Of a stretch of 23,398 nucleotides of DNA, positions 1,377 to 3,981 are shown piece after piece (the first letter of the stretch is position 1; each line of letters opens with the position of its first letter). Location: the IMG/VR virus record IMGVR_UViG_3300030329_001966, positions 1 to 23,398 of that record. The stretch is one strand, 5' to 3'. The notes beneath the pieces are model-generated. The model saw only the letters and a program-made list of their open reading frames with translations. It did no database searches and was not told the DNA's origin. This DNA is from a virus. Made by a program: the position numbers and the translations under genes.

Positions 1377-1501
1377 TCTGCCCTGAGTGCGATGGAGAGG
1401 GTTATATCGAGCGGAAGTCCTGGTTCGGCCCGTGGATGGAGCCTTGCACAAACTGTTACGGCGGCCTGGGTGAGGTGCCTGATGAGGATGATGATGAATG
1501 A
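1373..1501 (+). CDS. Tiny zinc-ribbon protein (42 aa)
   Basis: A 42-codon frame starts at ATG 1373, overlapping the TGA of the PP-loop gene (ATGA), and ends at TGA 1499-1501, overlapping the start of the methyltransferase. It encodes two DnaJ-type half-motifs, CPECDGEG at residues 3-10 and CTNCYGG at 25-31, followed by an acidic tail of mostly D and E. This is a complete small CxxC...CxxC zinc ribbon of the type often seen between larger phage genes. The tight coupling on both sides and the intact cysteine pattern support real translation. No specific partner or function can be named; a role in nucleic-acid or protein binding is only a guess. Confidence 0.65.
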   Translation: MICPECDGEGYIERKSWFGPWMEPCTNCYGGLGEVPDEDDDE

Positions 1502-2231
1502 AGAAATCCGCACCCTCGACCTGTTCTCAGGAATCGGCGGCATTGCATTGGGATTGCACCGGGCTGGGCCGTTCAAAACTGAATGCTTTGTCGAAAACGA
1601 CCCCTTCTGTCAGCGAGTTTTGCGACACCACTGGCCTGATACAAGAATCCATGACGATGTCTGCACCCTTGACACTGGAACCCTTGGAAAAATCGACCTT
1701 ATTGCCGGGGGATTTCCATGCCAGGACATCAGTTTTGCTGGAGGTGGAGAAGGACTTGAGGGAGACAGATCAGGACTGTGGCGAGAGTTCCACAGAATTA
1801 TTAGCGAGTTACGACCCCGATTCGTTATCGTGGAGAACGTCTCAGCGTTGCTTTATCGAGGGCTGGGCGAGGTTCTCGGAGACCTGGCCTCGCTCCGGTA
1901 CGATGCAGAGTGGCACTGCATACCGGCTTCCTACGTTGGCGGAACCCATATCCGCGACAGGGTGTTCATCATTTCCTACGCCCACGGCACGGGATTACAA
2001 GGGAAGCCGCTCGTTAGCTTCCCAGCAAGAGACGGGGAGAGGAGCAAGCAACAGCTTACCCGATTACTTGAGGATCAACGGCAACTGGCAATACCCACCC
2101 GTTCGGGCGGTGGAATACATGATGGGGTTTCCAGACGGATGGACAAGTTGCGAGGTCTTGGAAACAGCGTCTATGTGCCGGTCATCACCGCAATCGGACA
2201 AGCAATCCTCGAAAGTGAAAGACAGCCATGA
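1494..2231 (+). CDS. C5-cytosine DNA methyltransferase (Dcm type), compact
   Basis: This 245-residue enzyme would transfer a methyl group from S-adenosylmethionine to carbon 5 of cytosine in DNA, for instance to protect phage DNA from restriction. Motif I is LDLFSGIGG (8-16), motif IV is GGFPCQDIS with catalytic C76, motif VI is VENV (113-116), motif VIII is RDRVFII (154-160), and the C-terminal motif is LRGLGNSV (219-226). The target-recognition region between motif VIII and the C-terminus is only about 50 residues, so the enzyme is shorter than typical Dcm proteins of over 300 residues, though no catalytic motif is missing. I chose ATG 1494 with GAGG at 1484-1487; starts at 1488 and 1491 are possible, while the frame back to 1392 has no support. 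The target sequence is unknown. No cognate endonuclease is nearby, so it looks like an orphan methyltransferase. Confidence 0.88.
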   Translation: MNEEIRTLDLFSGIGGIALGLHRAGPFKTECFVENDPFCQRVLRHHWPDTRIHDDVCTLDTGTLGKIDLIAGGFPCQDISFAGGGEGLEGDRSGLWREFHRIISELRPRFVIVENVSALLYRGLGEVLGDLASLRYDAEWHCIPASYVGGTHIRDRVFIISYAHGTGLQGKPLVSFPARDGERSKQQLTRLLEDQRQLAIPTRSGGGIHDGVSRRMDKLRGLGNSVYVPVITAIGQAILESERQP

Positions 2232-2238
2232 GCATTAA
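1498..2238 (+). CDS. Candidate overlapping frame spanning the methyltransferase gene (246 aa)
   Basis: A frame shifted by +1 from the methyltransferase is open over its entire length, from ATG 1498 (four bases after the enzyme's ATG) to TGA 2236-2238. The product is not random-looking. It carries LLPGDFHARTS (68-78), SWRTSQRC (111-118), FSETWPRSGTMQSGTAYRLP (126-145), FPTPTARDYKGS (159-170) and MMGFPDGWT (208-216). I recognise these strings as recurring in many predicted phage proteins associated with cytosine methyltransferases. Each lies exactly over a conserved methyltransferase motif, so their recurrence may simply reflect conservation of the main frame. Start signals would be shared with the methyltransferase. 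It is either a true dual-coding gene or a widely misannotated shadow; sequence alone does not decide. Confidence 0.3.
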   Translation: MKKSAPSTCSQESAALHWDCTGLGRSKLNALSKTTPSVSEFCDTTGLIQESMTMSAPLTLEPLEKSTLLPGDFHARTSVLLEVEKDLRETDQDCGESSTELLASYDPDSLSWRTSQRCFIEGWARFSETWPRSGTMQSGTAYRLPTLAEPISATGCSSFPTPTARDYKGSRSLASQQETGRGASNSLPDYLRINGNWQYPPVRAVEYMMGFPDGWTSCEVLETASMCRSSPQSDKQSSKVKDSHEH

Positions 2239-2911: not shown

Positions 2912-3317
2912 GTTTGATTTCAAGGGGTATATCATTACCAACAATATCGGTGATGAGAAACTGGCCGAAGCACATCAGGCATTGTTGCAGACAATGGCAC
3001 CGGCAGAGGACAACGAGATAGCCAGGGGGTTGCTAAAGCTACGAGCGTTGACATCGCATAGGAATGACGGAGGTGACATCGATATCATTCTGGAGGCCTA
3101 CGTTGAGAAGCTGAAGGACTACCCAAGGGATGCCGTCTTGGAAAGTCTCAGCAAGATGTCAGACCAGTCCAAGTGGTTCCCAAGCTGGATAGAGATCAAG
3201 GAAGATGTCGAGTTCAGATGTCAGCATAGGTTGGAAATGTTGAAAGCAATTGAAAGGAAGAGAGATGACCAAGCAAGAAGAGCCATCCTTCGGGAAGTCA
3301 GCAAACGCTCCGCCTAG
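2790..3317 (+). CDS. Putative helicase loader / replication accessory protein
   Basis: The 175-residue protein follows the O-like initiator and overlaps it by 122 bases, the position lambda P has relative to O. It is mostly helical and charged. Residues ~60-150 contain a segment ending DYPRDAVLESLSKM...KWFPSWIEIKEDVE, a pattern I associate with phage replication accessory proteins of the helicase-loader position, followed by a basic helical tail (LEMLKAIERKRDDQARR). No nucleotide-binding motif is visible, so it is not a DnaC-type ATPase. I chose ATG 2790, with GATGAGG at 2776-2782 upstream; the frame is also open from TTG 2787. The long overlap is unusual, but there is no good later start. 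The functional call rests mainly on gene order. Confidence 0.5.
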   Translation: MNQLTIQKPPSAIDAIRTDKEAVNSLTLTAGLLVEERQSTEFDFKGYIITNNIGDEKLAEAHQALLQTMAPAEDNEIARGLLKLRALTSHRNDGGDIDIILEAYVEKLKDYPRDAVLESLSKMSDQSKWFPSWIEIKEDVEFRCQHRLEMLKAIERKRDDQARRAILREVSKRSA

Positions 3318-3981
3318 TTTCTTCGCCAGAGTGCCGACAAGAGCTACATGGGATGTGAGAAGGCCAGGAAAGCGCAACAAGGGCAAAGGTCTCAGTTTCG
3401 GTGACTATCATATCCTGAGTATCCTGTGCAGTTATGCCAACAACCAGGGCTTCACATGGCCCAATGCCGCAACCATTGCAGAACTGACCGGAGTAGACCG
3501 GCAGAACGTCACCAGAGCTTTAGGAAGGGCTGAGAAACTGGGCTACATCGAGAAGGTATCGAGGTTCCGAAGTCATCCAAAATGGCGACATGTCATGGGA
3601 ACTGTATGGCGGATCGTTTATGACAATAGACTGGATCAGGAAGAACTCATTGACAGCATGAACATCGAAGACCCTGCACCGGTCATGGAAGAGGACTTGC
3701 CGACAGTGAGTGAGCCAGACACCGGTAAACAGACATCTGAGGATGAGGAGGAGAGACTAGCTGAGGCAGTTGTGGTGGCAAGATGGTACTCTCGAGCCGC
3801 AGAGGAAGCGACCGGAGAATTGAGGCTGGTCAACCCCAGGGCTGTCGAGCTTGCCAAGGAATGCCTGACGGATCGTGGACTGACCAAGGAACAGATGATC
3901 ACCAGGGCTGAAGCTGTCCTGGCTGATTGCCGCAAGCAACGGAGGTCAACGCCACCTCACCTTGGTTTCCTTTTGATTTGA
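3265..3981 (+). CDS. Second HTH_36-type winged-helix protein, replication/regulatory
   Basis: This 238-residue protein starts at ATG 3265 behind AAGGAAG (3254-3260), inside the 3' end of the preceding gene. Residues ~44-118 are a winged helix closely similar in plan to the one in the O-like initiator two genes upstream: both read WP(S/N)...GVDR-type NV followed by a helix and then LGYIEKV or MGELQRV. The middle (~130-165) is acidic and probably disordered, and the C-terminus (~165-238) is a helical domain with no motif I recognise. It could be a second replication initiator, a repressor of the early region, or a paralogue produced by duplication. Its neighbours favour replication. A non-coding gap follows, so this gene ends the early cluster. 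Confidence 0.6.
   Translation: MTKQEEPSFGKSANAPPSFFARVPTRATWDVRRPGKRNKGKGLSFGDYHILSILCSYANNQGFTWPNAATIAELTGVDRQNVTRALGRAEKLGYIEKVSRFRSHPKWRHVMGTVWRIVYDNRLDQEELIDSMNIEDPAPVMEEDLPTVSEPDTGKQTSEDEEERLAEAVVVARWYSRAAEEATGELRLVNPRAVELAKECLTDRGLTKEQMITRAEAVLADCRKQRRSTPPHLGFLLI

Follow-up and report, generated by a model that had tools for sequence, protein, structure and literature searches.

The locus examined here raises the question of whether a second reading frame, open across the full length of a viral cytosine methyltransferase gene, encodes a protein and, if so, what that protein contributes. The window, meaning the whole stretch of DNA that was analysed, is a virus record of 23,398 bases. 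The first-pass annotation had noticed that the +1 frame stays open for 246 codons across the methyltransferase gene and had picked out several protein strings in it; the open reading frame coordinates agree, and each string is found where it was placed. The product of the main frame is referred to as α and that of the +1 frame as P. Their features, in window coordinates, are:

1494–2231, + strand: α, C5-cytosine methyltransferase, proposed large chain; ATG 1494 to TGA 2231
1498–2238, + strand: whole +1 frame across α, 246 codons; ATG 1498 to TAA 2238
1651–2238, + strand: likely coding part of P (proposed β subunit); matches phrog_1008 and holds the start candidates, the N-terminal part of the frame appearing unselected
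1707–1733, + strand: α motif IV, GGFPCQDIS; overlaps P GDFHARTS (1708–1731)
1809–2108, + strand: +1 segment with zero stops in 84 relatives (~201 expected)
1824–1850, + strand: α motif VI region, VIVENVSAL; overlaps P SLSWRTSQRC (1822–1851)
1876–1905, + strand: P core motif SETWPRSGTM; columns S71, G72, and G77 are invariant in alignment A2 (P and 66 others)
1950–1976, + strand: α motif VIII, IRDRVFIIS
1972–2088, + strand: P segment FPTPTARDYKG..NGNW, variable, probable target-recognition region; overlaps an unconserved, predicted-disordered α stretch
2101–2145, + strand: P VRAVEYMMGFPDGWT, C5-methyltransferase motif IX; overlaps α DGVSRRMDKL (2121–2150)
2151–2189, + strand: α motif X, RGLGNSVYVPVIT

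Further in-frame ATGs of α are present at 1482, 1488, and 1491. When the synonymous codons of α are shuffled, the whole +1 frame is open in 3 of 20,000 trials, and in none of 20,000 when the window's codon usage is applied. Directly upstream of the methyltransferase gene is a phosphoadenosine phosphosulfate reductase-like gene (438–1376), and such a gene is also near the methylase of mycobacteriophage ShiLan. Two neighbouring replication-initiation-like genes (2228–2911 and 3250–3981) both match phrog_270, and genes for terminase, head-tail adaptor, major head protein, and tail proteins follow in tailed-phage order (5510–15063).

α matches PF00145 (E=1.4e-42) and phrog_363 (E=1.1e-65). It carries C5-methyltransferase motifs I–VIII and X without motif IX; the canonical single-chain layout of Dcm and HhaI, where motifs VIII, IX, and X follow one another in one frame, is not found in α. 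In the AlphaFold2 model of α, only the large domain is confident. Its best PDB matches are M.HhaI and M.HaeIII, and the predicted fold is superimposable on M.HhaI over 177 columns at 2.0 Å. Residues 179–223 have pLDDT below 50 and are unconserved.

If P is a protein, the +1 frame should be kept open in homologues more often than the α frame predicts. Relatives were fetched with the α protein (80 loci, picked irrespective of the state of the +1 frame), with P (26 loci), and then with a P profile (29 bacterial and 80 viral loci). The stop test used 84 sequences of less than 80% identity, and the shuffles keep each α protein and its codon counts. Positions in the relatives are aligned to the window, position 1 being α residue 6. 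At positions 1–60, 178 +1 stops are observed against ~180 expected, whereas at positions 61–100 there are 12 against ~90, and at positions 101–200 (α residues ~106–205) there are 0 against ~201. Stops return at positions 201–220 (32 observed, 46 expected) and 221–240 (123 observed, 86 expected). The +2 frame of the same 84 relatives has no comparable gap, and 176 flanking genes show no depletion (1563 stops, 1531 expected). Relatives of E. coli Dcm from viral contigs are too similar to serve as a control, and controls were therefore chosen by the pattern of motif IX. These were 43 canonical C5-methyltransferases whose motif IX is in frame; over the equivalent region they contain 343 stops where 378 are expected, and not one of them has an open +1 frame. 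The P profile matches the +1 frame of α in all 222 loci, whether these were found with α or with P. The first-pass annotation had suggested looking for relatives of P that overlap no methyltransferase; there are none among the 222 loci, nor among the phage and plasmid matches inspected closely.

Synonymous sites of the two frames were compared in 189 pairs of 70–97% α identity, which share sequences and are hence not independent. Fourfold divergence of α in these pairs is 56% at positions 1–50, 43% at 62–100, 25% at 101–160, 5% at 161–208, and 49% at 222–238. The α sites are near-frozen where P is most exposed, whereas the P sites are free, with a fourfold divergence of 40% at positions 161–208. 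In the same interval the identity of P (0.61) exceeds that of α (0.50). The window and one relative (L029) give the same picture: at positions 161–208, fourfold differences number 0 of 15 in α and 9 of 16 in P, and at positions 1–50 they number 12 of 14 in α and 2 of 9 in P. This pattern indicates that P is under protein-level selection and that α, between its motifs VIII and X, is largely a passenger of P. Freely evolving α synonymous sites and +1 stops in close relatives with an intact enzyme had been named beforehand as the outcomes that would speak against dual coding; neither outcome was obtained.

The selected part of P is shorter than the open frame. Selection is seen from about α residue 66 on, and the first ~50 codons of the +1 frame look fortuitous, so that the length of 246 codons is partly luck. 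Translation of P probably starts inside α. A P-frame ATG with a Shine-Dalgarno sequence is enriched at positions 44–66 (38 of the 84 relatives, against 17.8 ± 3.3), and this enrichment is absent from control regions and from the +2 frame in those relatives. In the window, the start candidates are ATG 1651, ATG 1657, TTG 1684, and TTG 1756; none is decisive, and the candidate internal ATGs have no good Shine-Dalgarno sequence. The earlier proposal that α and P are initiated together at ATG 1494 and ATG 1498 does not hold up, as the N-terminus of P there is unconserved and internal starts are favoured.

The C-terminus of P, AVEYMMGFPDGWT, corresponds to C5-methyltransferase motif IX. The consensus is LNPxWVEWLMGFPxGWT, of which the window version is VRAVEYMMGFPDGWT. 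Among the 84 window-type relatives, the motif IX pattern is present in the P frame of 82 and in the α frame of none. In a relative on a Candidatus Megaera plasmid, a motif IX sequence, LNPDWVEWLMGYPISWT, is located in the frame of α and is followed by motif X. The Megaera protein covers PF00145 from 3 to 322 of 324 and aligns to M.HhaI LHPRECARVMGYPDSY...GNSVV (motifs IX–X), the second HhaI segment being weak alone. Selection on P, the location of motif IX on P, and its absence from α are in this sense established computationally.

P matches PHROG_1008 ('DNA methyltransferase'; E ~1.7e-27 to 2.6e-27), as do the 66 other members of alignment A2 (67 of 67 in all). The P profile finds no family entry in Pfam or NCBIfam, and no homologue is recognised for the N-terminal half of P. 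Against PDB sequences the only match of the profile is a plant DRM methyltransferase, at that protein's own motif IX and weakly (E=1.9). The model of isolated P has a mean pLDDT of 70 and is confident around residues 100–150 of a 184-residue construct, motif IX included. Foldseek matches this model to no solved structure in the PDB and to no known target-recognition domain (TRD); its few matches among viral models are P-like or annotated as methylases. In the absence of a solved-structure match, the assignment of a target-recognition region to P rests on motif IX, on the place of the segment between motifs VIII and X, and on its variable length and sequence, from which we infer that P probably holds this region.

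The relatives differ in where the motifs are placed. In layout (i), that of the window, α has motifs I–VIII and X and the nested P has motif IX; this layout also occurs in the distant coliphage and Salmonella phage relatives UTI89UKE1 and SEN4. In layout (ii), α ends after motif VIII, and the P-frame gene overlaps the end of α and continues through motifs IX and X. Its members are the Streptomyces phages Heather and Vash, Gordonia phage Camerico, Arthrobacter phage Andrew, and mycobacteriophages Abdiel and Severus. Two methylase genes are usually annotated in these records, and the C-terminal half of the layout (ii) P genes is unrecognised by Pfam. In layout (iii), represented by Gudmit, ShiLan, and Megaera, motifs IX and X are in the α frame and the N-terminal half of P is still open in +1. 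The motif boundary therefore shifts, IX and X being on P in some relatives and on α in others. In the record of Paenibacillus phage Leyra, the nested P bears the name of a second cytosine methyltransferase.

Several individual loci show further features. The +1 half retained in Gordonia phage Gudmit (L228), mycobacteriophage ShiLan (L229), and the Megaera plasmid (L227) has LPTP modules. On two Bacteroides finegoldii plasmids (L237, 1685–2743; L238, 1835–2743), the α frame is broken by stops and the P frame is open; these loci are annotated as short hypothetical proteins. In mycobacteriophage Llama (L108, genes 74/75), a frameshift relative to phage Nitzel interrupts α and P at one and the same position, and α is annotated as two genes.

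Other readings of the +1 frame have to be weighed against a β subunit. The first-pass annotation had offered, as its alternative to dual coding, that the recurring +1 family is a widely annotated shadow of the enzyme, in which conserved α motifs and codon bias make the frame look open and conserved. Several P strings do overlie conserved α motifs, and moderate GC predicts some +1 openness. However, shuffles that preserve α give ~201 stops where none is seen, P is better conserved than α at positions 161–208 while the synonymous sites of α are almost frozen, the +1 frame is not open in canonical relatives that share the catalytic motifs, and P extends past the stop of α in several phages. A shadow is thus contradicted by the synonymous shuffles together with the canonical control, and we reject it as extremely improbable. 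The dual-coding option is the one borne out, by the stop depletion, the constraint on α, and the extension of P beyond the α stop.

It is also very unlikely that P is made mainly as a frameshift fusion, with ribosomes shifting to +1 after motif VIII to yield a chain of motifs I–VIII, TRD, and motif IX. In Heather-type loci, a shift near the end of α would join I–VIII to TRD, IX, and X, but P is selected across α motifs V–VIII, upstream of any such shift, internal ATGs with Shine-Dalgarno sites are enriched, and the window-type P frame has no motif X. A real protein with a separate role, as a regulator or inhibitor of α or with an unrelated function, would accord with the lack of a structural match for P and with the N-terminal half, for which no homologue is recognised and which persists in loci where motif IX is in the α frame. 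We regard such a role as unlikely, as P carries exactly the motif that α lacks and some relatives have motif X on P too, α then having neither IX nor X. Of the functions originally guessed for P (regulator, inhibitor, or recognition subunit), the recognition subunit is the best because P carries motif IX, and the other two are less favoured.

The preferred reading, which we consider highly probable, is that α and P are the two chains of one cytosine-5 DNA methyltransferase whose genes are nested, P being the β subunit. The AdoMet-binding catalytic domain would come from α (frame 0), together with motif X. P (frame +1) would, in the window phage, most likely be made by internal initiation on the α message. 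Its contribution would be motif IX and most likely also the surface for target recognition, and it would bind α and complete the small domain. The α–P complex would then be the active, sequence-specific enzyme that methylates the phage DNA. Against a β subunit stand layout (iii), in which the retained N-terminal half of P is not explained by a pure carrier of motif IX, the lack of a solved-structure match for P, and the lack of a good Shine-Dalgarno sequence at the internal ATGs of the window.

Two-chain C5-methyltransferases as such are already known, and the reading of P as a nested β subunit has its model in M.EcoHK31I and M.AquI. In the window, the gene for the proposed small chain sits inside that for the large chain, in a different frame, and is selected as a protein; the small chain of M.EcoHK31I is reportedly encoded in another frame within the large gene (in work of Lee et al. 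in 1995). M.EcoHK31I (α/β, YGGCCR) and M.AquI each consist of two polypeptides, and in M.EcoHK31I the large chain has motifs I–VIII and X and the small chain motif IX alone (PMC3404938). Like M.EcoHK31I, the window has an α with I–VIII and X but without IX, and motif IX is on a second, smaller predicted chain. A further point against the β-subunit reading is that the predicted TRD of M.EcoHK31I sits in the large chain (PMC3404938); in the window, the corresponding α segment is unconserved and predicted to be disordered, which speaks against a TRD on α, although the P model resembles no known TRD, and the variable segment lies on P. The split of M.AquI, which separates the chain with I–VIII from that with IX and X, resembles that of Heather, Vash, Abdiel, Severus, Camerico, and Andrew, in which the P frame in addition runs over the end of the α gene. 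Unlike in M.AquI, motif X of the window is on α and P is nested. The ShiLan domain of mycobacteriophage methylases (PMC11855218) is a protein likewise concealed out of frame within a phage methylase gene, but there an HNH homing endonuclease has been inserted, read in the third frame (PMC11855218), whereas P would be a co-conserved part of the enzyme. PHROG_1008, P's own family, was annotated from phage genomes, and its name gives no hint that the members are encoded in +1 of another methyltransferase chain. A literature search, covering largely papers outside subscription journals, gave no account of the nested frame in phages or of a whole phage class so built.

We think it likely that a large class of phage and prophage 'Dcm' enzymes encodes its catalytic and DNA-recognition halves in two frames of one DNA, motifs IX and X being mobile between the chains, and that this class is mostly annotated as a single gene. 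The long same-strand overlap is common to phages and prophages of very different bacteria, both products apparently belonging to one enzyme. Many annotated phage cytosine methyltransferases would then be half-enzymes, so that recoded cloning or expression of the annotated gene would lose the partner. The locus offers a clean, assayable case of one sequence constraining two proteins, and its relatives form a rich natural set of split methyltransferases in which the boundaries move.
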